From the NCBI RefSeq assembly GCF_964355755.1, contig NC_092670.1, positions 20,955,201-21,019,200 on the forward strand: 64,000 nt of DNA, given 5' to 3'. The notes under the pieces were generated by a model. The model was given only the letters and a program-made list of their open reading frames with translations. It did no database searches and was not told the origin of the DNA. The position numbers and the translations under genes are program-made. Shown piece after piece: positions 31,966 through 64,000 of the stretch (positions are counted from its first letter, which is position 1; the number at the start of each line of letters is the position of its first letter). Origin of the DNA: Antedon mediterranea. Lineage: Eukaryota; Echinodermata; Crinoidea; Comatulida; Antedonidae.

Positions 31966-34900
31966 ATGAACAGTACTACTACTAGTAGTACCGGTAGGCC
32001 AAATTCCGGGACCATATTGTATCTAGGACTATGCATATTTATAGCTATACACCTTCAAATGTCGGCGGCAACAAAGACACAGTGGAACGGAGGATGTCCA
32101 GACAGATGTAAAGAAAACCCAAGCAAATATTGTGACGAAATCACTAAGACCTGTAAGACCTGTTCGTGCACTGATGGGCCAGATGGAAAAGAATGTCGTT
32201 GGAAGTGCCAAAGTATGTACTTGTTGATCGAAACCAGGAACTCTTCCCTGGTCGAACATTGTATCGAACAGTAATAAGCATAAATGATTTGATTTATTTG
32301 TAGGCCCTTCCTCCATGAAATAATTCACTTGTAATTGTGTAATTTTTTTTTCTCTTTGGTGGGGGGGGGGGGGGGGTGTCGCATGTGCATAAACTATTAC
32401 AGACTAAATAAAATAGCCTATAGGGTTAGTAGGCCTACACCAGTGCCTAACTAATATCCATTATAATAATTTTATTTTATAATAATTCTTGCAAACATTA
32501 ATAAAAGATATGTTTATTGCTTTTCTATTGTATACATCGGCTTTTTTCTTACAGTATTTGCATGAACATTTTCTTCAACAGCATTGTTTTAGCCTATATT
32601 AATTAGCTTTTCTATATATTAACATATAATACTATATATGTTACAAAGGTTATACATAAACACAATCGAGTTAATAATATTCACAATTCTCTCTTATCCT
32701 ATTTTAACCATATCATTTTCCTTTCAATCAAGTTGACATTGTTTTTACTAATTAATATTGTTGTTATGATTCCAAATTAGAATATCTCCCAGAATCGCGA
32801 CAGAACGCTTGGGAAGGTTGTATTGATAACTGTCAGCAAGATGTATCATACTTCTGTGATCAAGGCAGCAGAACATGTATGGAGTGCCAAGATCTTTGTG
32901 ACAACGAACCACAAGAAAAATGCCTTCAGAACTGTCCAGGTATGTTTATTGATTGTATAACGCAGATTTTGTTTAAATGTGCCTATCGTTTTCTCACATA
33001 ATTTCTACTTTGAACCGACTGTTTATTGTATTGATAAAAGAGACCTATGATATTTTTTACAGAACGTACGGAAAGTTGACAAAATATGATAGTTGCCCTG
33101 TATATATCATTATTTACTGTCCTCTATAAATAATAAACTCATTTTGTTGGAGTGACGTTTGAGAACAATTGTTATCAATAATTCAATGGCGTGCCAAGAA
33201 ATTCCTTTTATTAGCCTACTGTTTACTGCTATATGTAATGACACATCCTACTTAGCATCGTTGTTTGAACGAGCGCGTCAAAGTCCCAATTGTTTTCAGA
33301 TAATAGTGTTACTGTCAGTTGAATAAAGCTCTCTCTACACTACCAAACTAGCTTGAAAAAAAAGTGTGATGTGCCCAAATATGGTAGTGATACCCATATA
33401 TGGGCACATCACATTTGTTGTCACATAATAATAATACTTGAGTGTAGACAGGGCTTTAGAAATTACTACAGTACCCATATTCTATTGTTCTATACTGCAC
33501 TACTTCTTTTCATTCCAGCTTATCTGCTGAACAAACAAAAACCAGTGGTGACAAACAGTTGGGAGGGTTGTTACGAGAACTGCCAATACGACATTTCATA
33601 TTTCTGCGAGGCAGGCAGTGGAACTTGTATGGAATGTTATGATCTTTGTGACGCTAAAGCAAGTCATTACCTTAAGCAGAATTGTTTTACAAAGTGCCCT
33701 GGTAACTATATCTATACATCCCGTCCCGGGATTTTGTTCTCTATCCGAATACCATTTTTTCGTGCCTTTCATTAAGCATTGACATAGTATGTCGTGCACC
33801 ATACACAATGCATTTTCCCGCACTAAGTATGCCTAGTGGTCAGCTGCACCCCCGTCTAGTCGGAGATTGGTATGATTTGCTAGTTCATTAGAGTACACCA
33901 GGCCCGTATGCAGCATTTATAATGGGGGGGGGGGGTGCGAGCGAAGCGAGCAACAATGGCTGGGGGCCAGGGGGCCGCCAAGGGCTCCCGGTCAGAATTT
34001 GCGTTATTTGACGTTCTAAAGACTGATTTAAGACTCTCTGTTGTGGCTTGGGCTAGTTGAACGATGGACACCAGAACTTAACGCTTTCATGATGAGGCCA
34101 ACTCAGCAGGGGTGGCGCCAGGATCTTCCCGACGCGGGGGCTACATTCCCCGACGAGGGGGCTATGCGAGCGAAGCGAGCATCACTAGGCTGAGGGCCAG
34201 GGGGCCGCCAAGGGACCCCGCTGGGGGTCCAGGGGGCGAAGCCCCCGGAAGCAACGCGTTCTAGCGTCATTTGAGGTCTTTTTAATCAGATTTAGATTCA
34301 TTTTTTATAATGCATAAATAAAATACTGCGTGCAAAAAAACGATGCGCGATGACTGTTTCAATCCATATTTTTCAATTTAAAAAATAAAAGTTCAAAGAA
34401 AATTTAGAAAAATAGAGTTGGAGGTCCCGGAAATTGGACTTCAAAACATGAAAAAAAATATATAAGTCCCTATCATGGGTTGTGACTGAGCTAAGAAATG
34501 TTTGAAAAATAGAGATGTTAGGTCCCGGAAAATGTACTTCTTGTTCTTCGAAATATGACCAGCTTTATTGTTGGGGCTGAGCTAAGAAAATGTTTAAAAC
34601 TAGAGCTGCAGGTCTTCAAAAAATTGCATTTTATACTTTGGAAACATCAGGCCTAGAGGCTTAAAAAACGCAAGCGTAGACCTTTTTCAGTCGGGGAAAT
34701 AAGTTTATTCCTCCCAGGTGTATGCATGCGTACCATCTGGACTTCCGAGTGGTGAGAAATTCATGACATACAGGATATTGAAAATGTAATAACTATAGCT
34801 ATAATGTTGGCTAAGCGAAAATGGCATGTTTTTTTGTTTAGTAATGGATGAAAAAATTATTTTATGTTCCCCACGGTACAGAAGGTTACTTGTAAATTAA

Positions 34901-37900
34901 AAAATTGGTGAACAAACGAACAATTAACATAATTCGTTTTTGCTGTAGTGTAGCGTACGTCGACGCAGTACACGACGTAACCGTCGGTAAACTTCGCCTG
35001 GAAAATAACACATTACACATTTTGGTCCCTGGATGAAACTTGATATCACGCGTCTCGACCCAACGTTGAACGATTCGTACAAAGGGATACCGCCAGACAA
35101 GTGCGTACCTAGCTATTGTTTAGTAGTAAGTTAGATCGCTGGCAATAATGAATGCATATAAAGTGCATAATATCACTCTGACGTACTCTCACGGTCAATG
35201 AAACGTCGCGGTTTTCTAGGCGCTGAAGCTAGCTACGAAGTGAACGCGAACGTTTTTTACTGTATATTATATTCCCCGGCAAAAAGTACACGTGTTCCCT
35301 TCGGTAACCGTCGGTAAACTTCGCCTGGAAAATAACTACATTACACATTTTGGTCCCTGGATGAAACTTGATATCACGCGTCTCGACCCAACGTTGAACG
35401 ATTCGTACAAAGGGATACCGCCAGACAAGTGCGTACCTAGCTAATGTTTAGTAGTAAGTTAGATCGCTGGCAATAATGAATGCATAAAAGTGCATATTAT
35501 TATTAGCCCTCTGACGTACTCTCACGGTCAATGGAACGTCGTGGTTTTCTAGGCGCTGAAGCTATATGAAGTGAACGCGAACGTTTTTTACTGTATATTA
35601 TATTCCCAGACAAAAAGTACCCGTGTTCCCCGACGGGGGGGGGGGGGGGGGCTAGGCTCCCCGACGAGGGGGCTAGAGCCCCCGTAATCCCCCCGCTGGC
35701 GCCAACACTGCAACTCAGACGACACTGTCTGAGTTGGCCTTCCCTTGTTTAGGCGCCGTATTCGATAGTGTCTGTATTTCCAGATACGTCTTTACCGCCG
35801 GTTAGTTGTCTGTATTTCTCCAGCAAACACTTTACCGCGTACCGCGTACATGAAGCGCTAAGCTATTGCTTGTCGTCACATGATCGACTGCGCATGTTTT
35901 ACATCGAGTTTGTAGTCAGTTCAGATTCCGTAATTTAATTACCGGTATTTTTTCATTTTATATTAGCATATTTTTGTTTGTATACCATTGATAATGTAAA
36001 TTTTGTATATATATAATGATATTGTCTTTAGTTAAACAAGACAAGAAAAAATACCAACCGAGAAAATAGTGGACCTTTTGGGACTTGGGGGGGGGGGGGG
36101 TGCGTCTGCACCCAACGCACCCCCCTGGATACGGGCCTGTACACGTATAGATTTCTGAAATTCGTTATCCGATTAAAAAAAAACATTTTAGTAACAGCCG
36201 GCCCAGCTGTAATTATGTCCAGTTAAACCTCTAAAATCGAAAGTTTATACACACCTATTCTTTGGCACTTGAAAAACGTTCAAACGCCAATTAAAGGTGG
36301 GATCGGAACGTATAATTTATTTTATCGTGGTACATGGCCATAAAGATGGCTGCATATACGCGTGCGCAAATTTGAGTTAGTGTACCGACCGACATAGTGA
36401 GCTATAGAGTCGACTCGACTAAAATACTGTAAGTTTAACATACACCAATAATCATGTTTTCATGTCTATAGGTTATGTGTCGACGTTTATAACTACTGCC
36501 CGTCCAACTCCAAGTAAGATGATAGTAACTCCAAGTATACCTGCTACGGGACCTGCTGTAGAGCCGGAGACAACACAGCCACCAATACCAATGAGTGATT
36601 ATACAACACAAGTAACCAATTACTCACCAACTAGTGCAGACATGGAAAGCAGAAGCTCTCACATAAATACAATATATATAGCATCAGCCATTGGCGCAAT
36701 CATCTTGGTTTTAGTTGTTGTAGGCCTACTTGGCTGTTGTCTGCTTAAAAAATCGAGGCATAGGCCTAAGCAAGACAATAAGAATAAACCTGGGGACGCA
36801 GAAAATGGAATTGCAGTGCAGCAGCAGAATCAACCTCTTGTGGATGGTCATAGTAAGCTTAATTCTGTACTCCAATTTTAACATAGCTCGTCACACATAA
36901 TACCTGTGGTTCTAAACATAATCAGGCCCGTAGCCACGGGGGGGGGGGGGGTTATGGTTCGGGCGAACCCCAATCCCCCACTCTTTACAGCGAATCCCCC
37001 TTAACTAACTGCGAACCCCCATCCCCGACATACCCAATACCTCACTCTCATCTCTGATGACGTGCCGCACACAGTACAAAAGGTTATAATTTGATAATTC
37101 GTAAACTCGTTCGTGAATAACTCGATACATTCTTTGCTGTATGAGCGTACGTCGAGCGATACGTGTCTGTAAATTTCCAAGAGTTGCAAATGAATTGCCG
37201 ATTTTCACCTGAAATCCCTGGATGTAACATGATATTGATGCGTGTATCGTACTCATAAAGTGAGCTGGGGCACAATGATTCGTACAAAGGACACCGCCAG
37301 ACAACCGCGTACCTATATTGTTTAGATCAAGGCAGTCAGCATGCATACAATATACCGTAAATCTTCCAATTGTAACCCTGGGTTATTATTTTTTGATTGT
37401 TTTTTAAGGTGGGTTACTATTAGAAAGGAGATTACTTTTATAGTACTGGGTAACTATTACTAATCTTAATTTAGGCATTTGAAAATAGTTACTCACCTCA
37501 ACTATTCCGTTCAGCAAATCATAGCAAAATAATAAAACAGTACGAATAAACAAATTTGTTTGAACTCTAACTTTTATTTTATAAACTCAAAAACACTCAA
37601 TTCCCCACTCCCTAGATCAACATGCATTATCTCCTTATTTTCAAAATACGGCTGCATCATAAACGACCAGTCTTCATATGTCATTTGTCAATAGTTTTTG
37701 TGACTCTAATAATAATAATAATAACTTTATTGTTTCTCTTTTATAACAGAGGCACAATTCTCAAGAGATGTGCAACAACAACAAAAAAATATGGACTTAT
37801 CTAATATTAACCCCATGGGTTACTATTAGAGTAGTGGATTATTATTATAGATTGACTTATAGGCCTAAGGTTGGTTACTATTAGAGTAGTGGGTTACTAT

Positions 37901-40024
37901 TATAGATTGACTTATAAGGTTGGTTACTATTAGAAGGAGGGTTACTATTAGAGTGTGGGTTACTATTATAGATTGACTTATAAGGTTGGTTACTATTAGA
38001 AGGAGGGTTACTATTAGAGTGTGGGTTACTATTAGAAGATTTACGGTATAGCCTTCCGACGTAGGCCTACATAAAAAATGGAACGCTGATGCGGTTACCT
38101 ACAGTATTTATGTGTGGCTATGAAGTATAGTGTATCATCATCATCATCATCATAGAGGGTTATAGTGAATATTAATATATTACACTATAATATCTATGGT
38201 ATCATGTACTGTAGTTTACATTATAGCATCCGATTATTTTGTTCTAGGACCACCAGCCGATACGTGGGCTACTCAACCGTATCAATACCATCTATTTACA
38301 TTGATTAATATTCAATTTCCTCAACAAATTGCTGTAAATAAATATAGGTAGAGCTATAATAAGCATTGAATTTGACTTCTCACACAAAGTGTGCTTATTT
38401 CGGGGATTCCCCTAGGCGTACGTTCACATTGAACTTGAACGCAAAACAAAATACCGAGTGAATGATCAAACAATCGGCGGTAATTATTATAGTCCACGTG
38501 TGTGAGGAGGTGGAAAAAAGTACGAATACGATTGTTTTGCTCATTGGTAGCATGCTGCATGAGAGTGTCTTTTCCGACCAATTAGAGGTACCATTTATCA
38601 TAAATATTATGTGCGAGAGTACCATTTCCGGCTCAGGGGTGTCATTTAACAACCCCTCCCCCCTGGGGCAGTGTCCTAAATACAGTGTCCGAACCCCCGA
38701 TCACACCCCCACCCCCTTTACTGTTTAATCTGATTTTTTCTTCAATGTTTCATTCCAGCTCAGGTGCAAGAAAATGGCCCACATTCCCTTAAAAATGTAA
38801 AAGCAGACAAACACAATACTGAATATATACCTCTTGTAGAGGAGGAGGATATTTTCCATGGTAAGTCTAGTAGCAGAGGTTGGTACAGTCATTGAGGAAA
38901 CCCTCCATGGTACATCATCCCAGTGTTTATGGTTCACATAGCATGAGCACTTTTTACTATTACTTAATGTGTGATTTAAATACAGTATAAAACTACATAG
39001 TACAGTAAATACACGTGTCAATCCAATATTTCTAGTGAAAATCGTTAGACCTTGATTTTAAGGAATGAAGTTTGACGAACAACCGGACAAAAACACAATT
39101 TCGCATACGAGTTTGTAAACACGTAAAATAGGACATATTAACATTATATATTTTGAAAGAATTTCATTTAGCTTCGATTTTGTATAGATGACAAATTTCG
39201 TTTTTGTAAAAGCACAAGTTAACGGAGTACTTACTCGAACGTTTCGATCTCTATCAGAGATCCTTCTCAACTGACTGCGGAGTGTTAATGCAGCTTGGTT
39301 ATTCTTGACGTCATCTGTTGATCTACGAAGTCAAAAACGAAATTTGTCATCTATAACATTATATACTTACTCCAAAAATAATATCATTTTACATTACTAA
39401 CGAAATGACGTGTTTCTTCTGAACTTGCAGATTAGGCCTACTTTCGATCAAAATGTATTAATTTTTTTCTAGCTCAACAAGAGGCTGCAAATGACACATC
39501 TTCACTTGCTGTTAATGGTAAACCCTACCATTCAAATGCATGCATTAGTAATAGTATGAAGATGACAGAAATTACCACCACCACCACCCATCCTATGATG
39601 ATGCATTCTGGTTAATATTACAAGAGGCTTTGGTTAAAACAACTCAATTTAATTTTGATTACAACGCCACCATTCGTTGTTAATGTATAGTTGGGGTGGC
39701 GGGGGCGGGTGGGGGGAGTAGGGTTACAGAAAAATCGAATACATTTTTAGTTATATCGTTATTTATTGCTAATCTTGCAAAAAAAATATACAAGTATCGT
39801 ACTATTATTTATTGAGCTCCACACTCCATATATATAAAATAAGCATGAATTTACATGTTTATACATTATAAAGTGTTTGTGTGAGGGGAATGATTTAGTA
39901 ATGGTATAATTTTCTATATTTCTGAATAGGCCTATACTGTACATGCTATGTAGAGGGCAGAGAATACAAAACGTTCTAACATTGTATATCTACAGACTGT
40001 GAAACACAGAATTATAAATATTAA
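31966..40024 (+). CDS. Type I membrane protein with three 8-Cys modules, BCMA/TACI-like TNF receptor candidate (381 aa, 7 exons)
   Basis: Exons: 31966-32212, 32781-32939, 33519-33701, 36472-36852, 38759-38860, 39473-39517, 39996-40024. Every intron is phase 1. A signal peptide (hydrophobic residues about 16-35) is followed by three modules of eight cysteines. Module 1 has Cys 44, 48, 56, 63, 66, 68, 77, 81. Module 2 has Cys 96, 100, 108, 115, 118, 122, 130, 134. Module 3 has Cys 153, 157, 165, 172, 175, 179, 191, 195. Modules 2 and 3 end C-x2-C-x3-C-x7/11-C-x3-C, the spacing of the BCMA and TACI cysteine-rich domains (Pfam TALL-1-binding class), with one extra Cys pair in front. A Thr/Pro-rich stalk (about 198-260), one membrane helix (about 264-288) and a basic stop (KKSRHR) follow. 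The cytoplasmic tail has no death domain. Without splicing at 36852, the frame stops at 36881 (332 aa). Exons 1-4 are solid; exons 5-7 rest on splice sites and phase only. Receptor identity is inference. Confidence 0.7.
33325..33458. mobile_element. CTACACTATCAAACTAG MITE, copy 2
   Basis: The ends AAAGCTCTCTCTACAC and GTGTAGACAGGGCTTT are inverted. The centre is itself palindromic: GTGATGTGCCCAAATATGG facing ATATATGGGCACATCAC. It lies in intron 2 of the cysteine-module receptor. Confidence 0.75.
33899..36139. mobile_element. 2.24-kb non-autonomous DNA transposon with TACAC duplication
   Basis: The left terminus CAGGCCCGTATGCAG and the inverted right terminus CAGGCCCGTATCCAG match at 14 of 15 positions. 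Both sides are flanked by TACAC (33894-33898 and 36140-36144), a 5-bp target duplication. Each end carries a G run followed by a GTGCG word. Inside are a second inverted pair (GCCAACTCAG near 34099 and CTGAGTTGGC near 35728), GCGAGCGAAGCGAGC motifs, and a duplicated segment at 34977-35630. No transposase frame was seen. The CAGGCCCGTA terminus recalls hAT-type elements, but a 5-bp duplication is unusual for them. It lies in intron 3 of the cysteine-module receptor. Confidence 0.8.
34977..35630. repeat. Tandem duplication of about 327 bp inside the 2.24-kb transposon
   Basis: The segment beginning GTAACCGTCGGTAAACTTCG at about 34977 repeats from about 35303 with few changes. Shared blocks include TTTTGGTCCCTGGATGAAAC, CGTCTCGACCCAACGTTGAA, AAGGGATACCGCCAGACAAG and AACGTTTTTTACTGTATATT. 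A more diverged relative lies at about 37170-37330, outside this element. Confidence 0.85.
36923..37350. mobile_element. Diverged relative of the 2.24-kb transposon (partial)
   Basis: The left edge CAGGCCCGTAGCCACGGGGG resembles the terminus of the 33.9-36.1 kb element. Further on, the blocks CCCTGGATGTAACATGATAT, ATGATTCGTACAAAGGACAC and CGCCAGACA match its duplicated segment. A matching right terminus was not found; the TACTATTAGA element begins at 37353. Confidence 0.55.
37353..38048. mobile_element. 696-bp TIR element filled with TTACTATTAGA repeats
   Basis: The ends TACCGTAAATCTTCCAATTG and, inverted, TACCGTAAATCTTCTAATAG are near identical, flanked by TA on both sides (37351-37352 and 38049-38050), which suggests a Tc1/mariner-type TA duplication. 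The right half consists of tandem copies of GGGTTACTATTAGAG and GGTTGGTTACTATTAGAAGG units mixed with a TATAGATTGACTTATAAGG unit. It is non-coding and lies in intron 4 of the cysteine-module receptor. Confidence 0.75.
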
Positions 40025-51331: not shown

Positions 51332-52411
51332 TCACTTCCACTTGATACATTTTACCATAGCAATCCGGACCTTTTTATTAGTTATGGCGTAAAGTATGGG
51401 ATTGAACACGGAATCTGCATACATAATCAAATGTATCCACTTCCAGTGTCTTCTGTCTTCAAACACCATCGTAAAATTTTTCATAACTCCAGTTATCCCC
51501 AACGGGGCCCAACAAACTAAGAACGTTGATAGTATCACGCCCATCATAATCGCTGGTTTAATGTATCTTCGCTTGAAGTCTACATGTGTCGATGATTTAT
51601 TTTTATCAGTAGGCCTATGCACGTTCGGAAATTTTGATGACATGTCGTCTGCGTTTTGAGCGCGATCATTTTTGGATGGGTTTACTGCAACGGTGTTAAC
51701 TGTGGCGGACGCACCATCGTCCATAATTCCTACTCTACGTCGGCGTAGAATTCTTTTTCGGATATTCAAAAACGTATTCAAATTGAAATATGCAATTACC
51801 GACATTGGCACGAATAACAGAATAAATAGAAGAAATAAGTTTGATAATGTTTCGGGTATGGTATGGAAGTTACAATACAGATCGTCTGCTGTTGTGTCAT
51901 TAAATCCCACTACCTCATAGTAGACAATCTCATTGGTTGTCATTGTTACTATTGAGAACACCCAGGTGAAACTAATTTGCATATTCACTTTTCGCTTTGT
52001 TTGAGCTTCCAGGTAAACGGGGTATTCCTTGTGAACGAGCAAGTAACGATCTAAGCTTATGAACGCAATGGTATAAATCGTCACAATGAGAAAGCTTCCC
52101 TCTATTATAGATTTAAGCATGCACATGACTACGCCAAATGGCCATCGGTCTAGCGTGGTGACAACGATCAGCAGTGGTAGTGGGATCAGTCCAACACCAA
52201 GATCAGCCGTGGCTAGACTCATGATGTGCCGGTTGCTTTGTGGGTTATTCCTTAATGTTGCGTTTCGCGTGAATACGATAATCGTTAATGCGTTTCCACC
52301 TATGGCTATTATAGACAGGATGCTAACGAGTATATGGGTGAGTATCAATCCTGCAGTAACTTCAAATTCGTCAGACACGTCAGATGTTGACGCATTCTCG
52401 TCAAACTCCAT
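51332..52411 (-). CDS. Class A (rhodopsin-family) G protein-coupled receptor, single coding exon, 359 aa
   Basis: Seven hydrophobic helices carry class A landmarks: Asn40 (GNAL, 1.50), Asp70 (ATADLG, 2.50), Cys97 (3.25), Asp-Arg-Tyr 121-123, Trp150 (4.50), Cys180 (loop 2), Pro202 (5.50), Cys-Trp-Ala-Pro 300-303, and Asn-Pro-x-x-Tyr 337-341. Asn6 (NAS) is a possible glycosylation site. Position 3.32 is Glu104, not the Asp of aminergic receptors, so a biogenic-amine ligand is not supported. The third intracellular loop is long (about 215-280) and basic. The C-terminal tail is very short (CIKWK). The start is the first ATG after in-frame non-coding sequence. A splice acceptor at about 52508 (TTTTTTGTGTAG on minus) suggests a non-coding upstream exon. 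Candidate donors lie at 57019 and 57859 but are unproven. Intronless class A receptors are commonly expanded in echinoderms. The ligand is unknown. Confidence 0.9.
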   Translation of the reverse strand: MEFDENASTSDVSDEFEVTAGLILTHILVSILSIIAIGGNALTIIVFTRNATLRNNPQSNRHIMSLATADLGVGLIPLPLLIVVTTLDRWPFGVVMCMLKSIIEGSFLIVTIYTIAFISLDRYLLVHKEYPVYLEAQTKRKVNMQISFTWVFSIVTMTTNEIVYYEVVGFNDTTADDLYCNFHTIPETLSNLFLLFILLFVPMSVIAYFNLNTFLNIRKRILRRRRVGIMDDGASATVNTVAVNPSKNDRAQNADDMSSKFPNVHRPTDKNKSSTHVDFKRRYIKPAIMMGVILSTFLVCWAPLGITGVMKNFTMVFEDRRHWKWIHLIMYADSVFNPILYAITNKKVRIAMVKCIKWK

Positions 52412-53329
52412 TTTCAGCAGGAATTCATCGATGAAATATGAAATTTAATCACTACAACGTACGATGACAGTCATTTATCAACTGTCTCAGCAAAGATAAC
52501 CAAGACTCTACACAAAAAAAAGGAAAATTTTAAAAATAAAAATATAATTCGTTTATTTTGACAGTTACTGTCAATTTACGACCTTTAAGCATCAATTAAC
52601 TTATTGACATTTTAGCCATATCAATAGATTGCATTCGATATCGATCGCAAGGCATACGTATAGTTAATTTAAAAGTCTAATAAACCCGTTTCTTCATTTA
52701 ATACTTCACAATGAACAATATTGGCTAGATGTATCTAAATAAAGGAGTAATTGTAACATTAGATGATAATAACGACTTTACAGGGAAAAAATAAAACACT
52801 AACTAGGTCAACACTTTTAAAATTAGTTTTAAGGTATAGGCCTATGCGATTATATTCACAGTCGATGGTAAATTATTGATAATACATTAAAAAGTGCAGT
52901 ACTCTAAATTCTATTTAATATAATTTGATCGATACCTCGTAGAAGATTAGTATTTTATGGAAAGATGCGCTTGGTATTGATCAATATACGACAAGATGAT
53001 AATAATTTTAAGATGCAATGTAATATAAAAAAAATGTGTTTTATTTTGATTAGAAAAGACCTCAGTTTTGCCTCATTAAGATGGAAATGAATTGTAAAGG
53101 TTAGCTGAAAGCGACGGCATGAAATTAAAATTATAATTTCATACTAGAATAATAATAGTTCAATGAAAATATTTTAAAAACATTGGAACGAAATGAAATA
53201 TGCTAATTAGTTGATAAAAATAAAATTTGCATGGACGCTTGATAATGATAATAAGAAAATAACGCCTTATACTATAAATGGTGGAAACAATGGCATGTTG
53301 AAGATAGACGATGATTTAAAACAAATTTC
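52412..53329. other. Upstream region of the GPCR, no gene recognised
   Basis: Apart from the possible 5' UTR and splice acceptor near 52508, only AT-rich sequence is seen. Confidence 0.4.
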
Positions 53330-59505: not shown

Positions 59506-62500
59506 ACTGGTATGAATGTAGTGCGAGGAATGCGGGAAAGGGCATCGTATAAGGTATGAATGTAGTGCGAGGAATGCGGGAAAGGGCACCGTATAACTGG
59601 TATGAATGTAGTGCGATGAATGCAGGAAAGGGCACCGTATAACTGGTATGAATGTAGTGCGAGGAATGCGGGAAATGGCATCGTATAAGGTATGAATGTA
59701 GTGCGAGGAATGCGGGAAATGGCATCGTATAACTGGTATGAATGTAGTGCGAGGAATGCGGGAAATGGCATCGTATAAGGTATGAATGTAGTGCGAGGAA
59801 TGCGGGAAATGGCATCGTATAACTGGTATGAATGTAGTGCGAGGAATGCGGGAAATGGCATCGTATAACTGGTATGAATGTAGTGCGAGGAATGCGGGAA
59901 AGGACATCGTATAACTGGTATGAATGTAGTGCGAGGAATGCGGGAAAGGGCATCGTATAACTGGTATGAATGTAGTGCGAGGAATGCGGGAAAGGGCATC
60001 GTATAAGGTATGAATGTAGTGCGATGAATGCGGGAAATGGCACCGTATAACTGGTATGAATGTAGTGCGAGGAATGCGGGAAAGGACATCGTATAAGATA
60101 TGAATGTAGTGCGAGGAATGCGGGAAAGGGCACCGTATAACTGGTATGAATGTAGTGCGAGGAATGCGGGAAATGGCACCGTATAACTGGTATGAATGTA
60201 GTGCGAGGAATGCGGGAAATGGCATCGTATAAGATATGAATGTAGTGCGAGGAATGCGGGAAAGGGCACCGTATAACTGGTATGAATGTAGTGCGAGGAA
60301 TGCGGGAAATGGCACCGTATAACTGGTATGAATGTAGTGCGAGGAATGCGGGAAAGGGCACCGTATAACTGGTATGAATGTAGTGCGAGGAATGCGGGAA
60401 AGGGCATCGTATAAGATATGAATGTAGTGCGAGGAATGCGGGAAAGGGCACCGTATAACTGGTATGAATGTAGTGCGAGGAATGCGGGAAATGGCATCGT
60501 ATAAGGTATGAATGTAGTGCGAGGAATGCGGGAAAGGGCATCGTATAAGATATGAATGTAGTGCGAGGAATGCGGGAAAGGGCACCGTATAACTGGTATG
60601 AATGTAGTGCGAGGAATGCGGGAAATGGCACCGTATAACTGGTATGAATGTAGTGCGAGGAATGCGGGAAAGGGCACCGTATAACTGGTATGAATGTAGT
60701 GCGAGGAATGCGGGAAAGGGCATCGTATAACTGGTATGAATGTAGTGCGAGGAATGCGGGAAAGAGCATCGTATAACTGGTATGAATGTAGTGCGAGGAA
60801 TGCGGGAAAGGGCATCGTATAAGGTATGAATGTAGTGCGAAGAATGCGGGAAAGGGCACCGTATAACTGGTATGAATGTAGTGCGAGGAATGCGGGAAAT
60901 GGCACCGTATAACTGGTATGAATGTAGTGCGAGGAATGCGGGAAATGGCATCGTATAAGGTATGAATGTAGTGCGAGGAATGCGGGAAAGGGCATCGTAT
61001 AAGATATGAATGTAGTGCGAGGAATGCGGGAAAGGGCACCGTATAACTGGTATGAATGTAGTGCGAGGAATGCGGGAAATGGCACCGTATAACTGGTATG
61101 AATGTAGTGCGAGGAATGCGGGAAAGGGCACCGTATAACTGGTATGAATGTAGTGCGAGGAATGCGGGAAAGGGCATCGTATAACTGGTATGAATGTAGT
61201 GCGAGGAATGCGGGAAAGGGCATCGTATAACTGGTATGAATGTAGTGCGAGGAATGCGGGAAAGGGCATCGTATAAGGTATGAATGTAGTGCGAAGAATG
61301 CGGGAAAGGGCACCGTATAACTGGTATGAATGTAGTGCAAGGAATGCGGGAAATGGCACCGTATAACTGGTATGAATGTAGTGCGAGGAATGCGGGAAAG
61401 GGCATCGTATAAGGTATGAATGTAGTGCGAGGAATGCGGGAAAGGGCACCGTATAACTGGTATGAATGTAGTGCGAGGAATGCGGGAAATGGCACCGTAT
61501 AACTGGTATGAATGTAGTGCGAGGAATGCGGGAAAGGGCACCGTATAACTGGTATGAATGTAGTGCGAGGAATGCGGGAAATGGCACCGTATAACTGGTA
61601 TGAATGTGGTGCGAGGAATGCGGGAAATGGCACCGTATAACTGGTATGAATGTAGTGCGAGGAATGCGGGAAAGGGCACCGTATAAGGTATGAATGTAGT
61701 GCGAGGAATGCGGGAAATGGCACCGTATAACTGGTATGAATGTAGTGCGAGGAATGCGGGAAAGGGCATCGTATAACTGGTATGAATGTAGTGCGAGGAA
61801 TGCGGGAAATGGCACCGTATAACTGGTATGAATGTAGTGCGAGGAATGCGGGAAAGGACATCGTATAAGGTATGAATGTAGTGCGAGGAATGCGGGAAAT
61901 GGCACCGTATAACTGGTATGAATGTAGTGCGAGGAATGCGGGAAGTGCATCGTATAAGGTATGAATGTAGTGCGAGGAATGCGGGAAAGGGCACCGTATA
62001 AGGTATGAATGTAGTGCGAGGAATGCGGGAAATGGCATCGTATAACTGGTATGAACGTAGTGCGAAGAATGCGGGAAATGGCATCGTATAACTGGTATGA
62101 ATGTAGTGCGAGGAATGCGGGAAAGGGCACCGTATAAGGTATGAATGTAGTGCGAGGAATGCGGGAAAGGGCATCGTATAAGGTATGAATGTAGTGCGAG
62201 GAATGCGGGAAATGGCATCGTATAAGGTATGAATGTAGTGCGAGGAATGCGGGAAATGGCATCGTATAACTGGTATGAATGTAGTGCGAGGAATGCGGGA
62301 AAGGGCATCGTATAAGGTATGAATGTAGTGCGATGAATGCAGGAAAGGGCACCGTATAACTGGTATGAATGTAGTGCGAGGAATGCGGGAAAGGGCATCG
62401 TATAACTGGTATGAATGTAGTGCGAGGAATGCGGGAAAGGGCATCGTATAAGGTATGAATGTAGTGCGATGAATGCGGGAAATGGCACCGTATAACTGGT

Positions 62501-64000
62501 ATGAATGTAGTGCGAGGAATGCGGGAAAGGACATCGTATAAGATATGAATGTAGTGCGAGGAATGCGGGAAAGGGCACCGTATAACTGGTATGAATGTAG
62601 TGCGAGGAATGCGGGAAATGGCACCGTATAACTGGTATGAATGTAGTGCGAGGAATGCGGGAAATGGCATCGTATAAGATATGAATGTAGTGCGAGGAAT
62701 GCGGGAAAGGGCACCGTATAACTGGTATGAATGTAGTGCGAGGAATGCGGGAAATGGCACCGTATAACTGGTATGAATGTAGTGCGAGGAATGCGGGAAA
62801 GGGCACCGTATAACTGGTATGAATGTAGTGCGAGGAATGCGGGAAAGGGCATCGTATAAGATATGAATGTAGTGCGAGGAATGCGGGAAAGGGCACCGTA
62901 TAACTGGTATGAATGTAGTGCGAGGAATGCGGGAAATGGCATCGTATAAGGTATGAATGTAGTGCGAGGAATGCGGGAAAGGGCATCGTATAAGATATGA
63001 ATGTAGTGCGAGAAATGCGGGAAAGGGCACCGTATAACTGGTATGAATGTAGTGCGAGGAATGCGGGAAATGGCACCGTATAACTGGTATGAATGTAGTG
63101 CGAGGAATGCGGGAAAGGGCACCGTATAACTGGTATGAATGTAGTGCGAGGAATGCGGGAAAGGGCATCGTATAACTGGTATGAATGTAGTGCGAGGAAT
63201 GCGGGAAAGGGCATCGTATAACTGGTATGAATGTAGTGCGAGGAATGCGGGAAAGGGCATCGTATAAGGTATGAATGTAGTGCGAAGAATGCGGGAAAGG
63301 GCACCGTATAACTGGTATGAATGTAGTGCGAGGATCGGAATGCGGGAAATGGCACCGTATAACTGGTATGAATGTAGTGCGAGGAATGCGGGAAATGGCA
63401 TCGTATAAGGTATGAATGTAGTGCGAGGAATGCGGGAAAGGGCATCGTATAAGATATGAATGTAGTGCGAGGAATGCGGGAAAGGGCACCGTATAACTGG
63501 TATGAATGTAGTGCGAGGAATGCGGGAAATGGCACCGTATAACTGGTATGAATGTAGTGCGAGGAATGCGGGAAAGGGCACCGTATAACTGGTATGAATG
63601 TAGTGCGAGGAATGCGGGAAAGGGCATCGTATAACTGGTATGAATGTAGTGCGAGGAATGCGGGAAAGGGCATCGTATAACTGGTATGAATGTAGTGCGA
63701 GGAATGCGGGAAAGGGCATCGTATAAGGTATGAATGTAGTGCGAAGAATGCGGGAAAGGGCACCGTATAACTGGTATGAATGTAGTGCGAGGAATGCGGG
63801 AAATGGCACCGTATAACTGGTATGAATGTAGTGCGAGGAATGCGGGAAAGGGCATCGTATAAGGTATGAATGTAGTGCGAGGAATGCGGGAAAGGGCACC
63901 GTATAACTGGTATGAATGTAGTGCGAGGAATGCGGGAAATGGCACCGTATAACTGGTATGAATGTAGTGCGAGGAATGCGGGAAAGGGCACCGTATAACT
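59506..64000. repeat. 46/44-bp satellite array with higher-order structure
   Basis: About 99 units of GGTATGAATGTAGTGCGAGG followed by AATGCGGGAAAGGGCACCGT and ATAACT fill the end of the window and continue beyond it. Units are 46 bases, or 44 when the join reads ATAAGG or ATAAGA instead of ATAACTGG. Variant sites (GGG or ATGG before CA; CACC or CATC; GCGAGG, GCGAAG or GCGATG) recur in order: a block of 454 bases repeats at 60837 and 61291, and a block of about 2445 bases repeats (60021 to 62466, 60837 to 63282). The three overlapping minus-strand frames of about 1500 codons exist only because the unit has no stop codon in any minus frame, and should not be called genes. Confidence 0.97.

Follow-up and report, generated by a model that had tools for sequence, protein, structure and literature searches.

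The 64,000-nucleotide stretch of Antedon mediterranea DNA analysed here (the window; contig NC_092670.1, positions 20,955,201 to 21,019,200) carries a gene for a cysteine-rich membrane protein, and the question it raises is to which kind of receptor, if any, this protein belongs. A first-pass annotation had assigned it to the TNF receptors, with the cysteine spacing of the BAFF/APRIL receptors BCMA and TACI. Our analysis points elsewhere within this superfamily: the gene probably encodes a triple-module TNF receptor of an echinoderm, of the type represented by Drosophila Grindelwald.

The gene model consists of six coding exons on the plus strand, spanning positions 31966-39615 of the window, which yield a predicted type I membrane protein of 404 residues. 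All of the acceptors are AG and all of the donors GT, every junction is in phase 1, and the stop codon (TAA) occupies positions 39613-39615. The exons are as follows:

31966..32212, plus strand: coding exon 1, hydrophobic N-terminal signal sequence and module 1 (Cys 44-81, spacing 3,7,6,2,1,8,3); reading frame open from its ATG, GT donor, phase 1
32781..32939, plus strand: coding exon 2, module 2 (Cys 96-134, spacing 3,7,6,2,3,7,3); AG/GT splice sites, phase 1-1
33519..33701, plus strand: coding exon 3, module 3 (Cys 153-195, spacing 3,7,6,2,3,11,3), the nearest to Drosophila Grindelwald spacing as compared with PDB 6ZSY; AG/GT splice sites, phase 1-1
36472..36852, plus strand: coding exon 4, Thr/Pro-rich stalk, the one membrane helix (residues ~264-288) and start of the tail; from hydropathy and splice sites
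38759..38860, plus strand: coding exon 5, cytoplasmic tail including YIPL (YxxPhi-type); from splice sites and phase
39473..39615, plus strand: coding exon 6, end of the tail, containing AQQE (TRAF2-type consensus), and stop; splice acceptor, frame open to TAA

The N-terminal hydrophobic stretch comprises residues 14-33. One strong membrane helix was found at approximately residues 264-288, with a hydropathy peak of 3.09 at 270-288, and is followed by a tail of about 117 residues. A Pfam scan detected neither a death domain nor any other domain in the protein. Thus, the features read from the letters in the first pass (one module per exon in phase 1, a Thr/Pro stalk, a single helix and no death domain) were all seen, although the seven exons counted at that stage were reduced to six. 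The short TRAF and sorting motifs of the tail were dropped as evidence, since both are at chance level: AQQE is present in 27% of shuffled tails, and YIPL does not exceed chance expectation.

Several other features were recorded in the same DNA. The intron preceding coding exon 5 contains tandem units of the GGTTACTATTAGA type, with a 66-base period (37873-38038). A satellite array with a 46-base unit (approximately 99 copies, 93% matches) and strong strand asymmetry (GC skew 0.5) occupies positions 59506-64000 and continues past the end of the window. On the minus strand there is a long single-exon frame of a rhodopsin-type GPCR (51332-52444; Pfam 7tm_1, E 1.9e-39), as well as a tRNA-like gene (2382-2453; Rfam tRNA score 39), identified by ARAGORN as tRNA-Asp with the unusual anticodon atc. 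The genome also contains a bindin gene (E 2.3e-28), bindin not being known outside the echinoderms, and a tektin-1 exon with 78/111 identities to a tektin of PDB 8SNB, the sea-urchin sperm doublet, versus 65/111 to human tektin-1. Both findings give good support to an echinoderm source, as assumed in the first pass.

The eight-cysteine plan of the modules is real and is single-copy in the genome. In a search of all six frames of the window, a loose regular expression for this plan matched nowhere but at the three module sites, and it did not occur in any of 60 simulated windows with equal dinucleotide content. This bears out the plan described in the first-pass annotation, whose residue ranges for modules 2 and 3 agree with ours. 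Module 3 differs from module 2 in loop 6 alone and from module 1 in both loop 5 and loop 6; the identity between modules 2 and 3 is about 60%. It had also been proposed that the same gene be sought elsewhere; the search, performed in the animal's own genome (354 Mb), revealed no second copy or close paralogue. The residue directly before Cys3 is aromatic in every module (F, F and Y in modules 2, 3 and 1, respectively), and the Cys3-Cys4 loops (DQGSRT, EAGSGT and DEITKT) all contain Ser or Thr (S in modules 2 and 3, T in module 1). The BAFF/APRIL-contact motif Asp-x-Leu is missing from the loops of all three modules.

This plan closely resembles that of Grindelwald. In the Grindelwald sequence of PDB 6ZSY, the loops are 4,6,6,2,3,11,3, so that five of the seven are identical in length to those of module 3, while loops 1 and 2 differ in length but have an equal sum. 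Grindelwald has eight cysteines forming four disulfides, arranged in an X2 hairpin (two intercalated bonds) followed by a C2 helix-loop-helix (nested bonds), and its topology is similar to that of the second domain of TACI and of BCMA and Fn14, although their Asp-x-Leu ligand motif is not present in it (PMC8024323). Its Phe46, which packs between X2 and C2, is required for the fold and for Eiger binding, and the substitution of Thr51 by Ala abolishes this binding (PMC8024323). Phe46 corresponds to the position before Cys3, which is aromatic in all three Antedon modules, and the Thr51 position is occupied by Ser or Thr in all three. The extra Cys pair at the front of each module, previously regarded as a new variant, is not one, because Drosophila Grindelwald shows a matching eight-cysteine plan with this pair lying within the X2 hairpin. 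By analogy with Grindelwald, the disulfides would be expected to link cysteines 1-3 and 2-4, with 5-8 and 6-7 nested, rather than to follow the 1-2, 3-5, 4-6 pattern that had been anticipated for the last six.

Profile comparisons were used to gauge the strength of this resemblance. In hhalign, the modules scored 19.6 with Grindelwald (P 0.0007 for this pair), 18.0 with TACI, 11.6 with BCMA and 9.7 with a BCMA-like module of the same genome, and 7-11 with six ordinary TNFR modules, also from this genome. None of 300 full shuffles reached the real score for Grindelwald and one of 300 did so for TACI. When the cysteines were kept fixed, the real score was reached by 20/300 shuffles for Grindelwald and 13/300 for TACI (4-7%), which shows that the signal comes mainly from cysteine spacing and that the residues between the cysteines add little. 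For the same reason (20 equal scores among 300) we refer to the gene as Grindelwald-like, and not as a Grindelwald orthologue. A three-module profile compared with all sequences of solved structures (n=177,635) placed TACI CRD2 first, at a non-significant E of 0.4; one such alignment omitted four loop residues of module 3 to bring the cysteines into register. Grindelwald was absent from the results of the modules' profile against solved-structure sequences at E <= 10. A profile that included Grindelwald recovered Grindelwald alone and, being circular, was not counted, and a genome search with Grindelwald as the query returned only a low-complexity repeat (L037).

It is conceivable, at perhaps rather better than one chance in four, that the gene encodes an unrelated cysteine-rich membrane protein (an adhesion molecule, a decoy or a pattern-recognition receptor) whose spacing is convergent. 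No search gave a significant match to any family, whether with Pfam, phmmer or the modules' profile against PDB, which favours this explanation, as does the weak likeness outside the cysteines. The Pfam scan of the whole protein and of single modules yielded no credible family, including the TNFR and BCMA/TACI models against which a check had been recommended, and phmmer searches of PDB with the three modules and with module 3 alone returned nothing at E 10. However, Pfam also fails on Drosophila Grindelwald itself, and therefore the absence of a Pfam match is uninformative either way; a failure of this type has likewise been remarked for the Grindelwald homologues of other species (PMC9646898). 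In the literature covered, which comprised papers available without subscription, such homologues are mentioned for insects only.

Structure prediction was performed with AlphaFold for modules 3 and 2 singly, with an alignment composed of the other modules only. In these models, whose mean pLDDT of 54 and 64 denotes low confidence, the second half forms two helices and is C2-like, and the first half is helical, with no hairpin. The helical first half also fits an unrelated protein. Of the modelling check proposed in the first pass, the C2-like helix pair was thus obtained, whereas the hairpin was not, at confidence values too low for judging fold or disulfides; Foldseek searches with these models gave no match, and neither did VIA-align. 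Three observations argue against a merely convergent protein: the top two comparisons are with Grindelwald and TACI, the latter reached through an unbiased search; each of the three modules keeps an aromatic residue ahead of Cys3 and a Ser or Thr between Cys3 and Cys4; and the protein as a whole has the topology of a TNF receptor.

The original proposal of a true invertebrate relative of BCMA and TACI, binding BAFF/APRIL-type ligands, now appears improbable. Its best arguments are the first rank of TACI CRD2 among the PDB matches, the TACI-like Cys4-Cys8 spacing of module 2 and the presence in the genome of a ligand of the EDA/APRIL cluster. Against the BCMA/TACI/BAFF-R spacing of x12, x2, x3, x7-8, x3, cysteines 4-8 fit, but the gap between Cys2 and Cys4 is 14 instead of 12, and there are two additional cysteines. 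In the TACI alignment, the six cysteines of TACI pair with Cys2, Cys4 and Cys5-Cys8 of the modules, which indicates that the cysteines extra relative to TACI are Cys1 and Cys3, and not the first two. The eight-cysteine plan is that of Grindelwald rather than that of TACI. Moreover, the Asp-x-Leu motif is lacking and the BCMA score is no better than chance. The protein does not match the Pfam TACI-CRD2 or BCMA models, genome searches with these and with the Fn14 model omitted the gene, and none of the 20 genome matches to Pfam TNFR_c6, which represent ordinary TNF receptors, falls within it, nor does the protein match this model. Of the earlier TNF-receptor assignment, the superfamily remains a reasonable lead, with TACI as the top though non-significant profile match, whereas BCMA/TACI membership is displaced by the better fit to Grindelwald.

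Another locus is closer to BCMA. The genome search with the TACI-CRD2 model led to an exon (L031:1381-1593; G000:C3, around 9924475, plus strand) that encodes a signal sequence together with a single module of six cysteines, CGDNEVYDSNIRACVDCNICVEHPDEAACEKC, with spacing x12,x2,x2,x8,x2 and a YDSN motif. It matched BCMA in PDB weakly (E 0.019), and the Pfam TACI-CRD2, BAFF-R and Fn14 models below the cut-off. Judging from these matches, it seems a better echinoderm candidate for a BCMA/Fn14-type receptor than the gene in the window. Finally, an error in the gene model, or decay of the locus into a copy from which no receptor is made, is very hard to credit, since, although predicted exons 5 and 6 are based solely on splice sites and an open frame, all six exons have intact frames with consistent phase and splice sites, and modules 2 and 3 conserve cysteines and motif residues between them.

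The BAFF/APRIL-like ligands for which a search had been suggested are represented in this genome by TNF ligands resembling EDA, APRIL and Eiger. Several ligand exons were detected (L023-L026 and L028; G000:C5: 547720-548772, 21113997 and 24885036-24885719), and one of them, compared with solved structures, had its best matches in ectodysplasin A (3e-9), APRIL (5e-8) and Eiger (1.8e-6). A further candidate (L027:925-1809; G000:C9, 23249458), a single frame of 295 aa with a long collagen repeat and a C1q/TNF-like end, was rejected, since the collagen repeat marks it, on our reading of the sequence, as a C1q-like protein and not a TNF ligand.

For the fold, disulfides, ligand binding and signalling of a Grindelwald-type receptor in Antedon we infer the following scheme. 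The protein would be a type I cell-surface receptor of an echinoderm, belonging to the TNF-receptor superfamily, and would carry on the outside three tandem Grindelwald-type domains, in each of which an X2 hairpin (Cys1-3, Cys2-4) precedes a C2 helix-loop-helix (Cys5-8, Cys6-7). Its ligand would most likely be a trimeric TNF of the EDA/APRIL/Eiger cluster, of which several are encoded in the same genome, and one module (probably the distal one or the Grindelwald-like third) may insert its hairpin between two ligand protomers. Ligand engagement would cluster the receptors, and the short tail might then recruit TRAF-type adaptors by a route other than a death domain.

Grindelwald has been described as the first TNF receptor to unite an X2 with a C2 module. 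We tentatively suggest, at somewhat less than even odds, that receptors of this type predate insects and were already present in the ancestor that insects share with echinoderms, the echinoderm forms being multi-module, existing beside BCMA-like and ordinary TNF receptors, and hidden from sequence-based annotation. If this is true, the receptor type is placed at or before the insect/echinoderm split and could bridge Grindelwald and the BCMA/TACI/Fn14 receptors, and the family models now in use miss an entire class of TNF receptors encoded by invertebrates.

Three known or candidate systems can be set beside the Antedon gene. From TACI (TNFRSF13B) and BCMA (TNFRSF17) it differs in the extra Cys1 and Cys3, the three modules, the signal sequence and the lack of Asp-x-Leu. 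The L031 exon resembles it as a secreted or membrane cysteine-rich protein with the single-CRD kind of TNF-receptor module; however, L031 has six cysteines and a direct, weak match to BCMA, whereas the window gene has no such match. In comparison with Grindelwald (Drosophila; PDB 6ZSY, 6ZT0), the receptor for Eiger, the Antedon protein has three tandem modules instead of one and a long Thr/Pro stalk, the Eiger contacts His66, Asn67, Tyr48 and Glu52 are not conserved in its modules, its host is an echinoderm and not an insect, and the overall sequence match is not significant. The two proteins nevertheless share a signal sequence, a single membrane helix, and the absence of a death domain, of Asp-x-Leu and of any Pfam match. 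What would be new, if confirmed, is a three-module Grindelwald-like receptor in an echinoderm, built on an eight-cysteine design that is itself already known.
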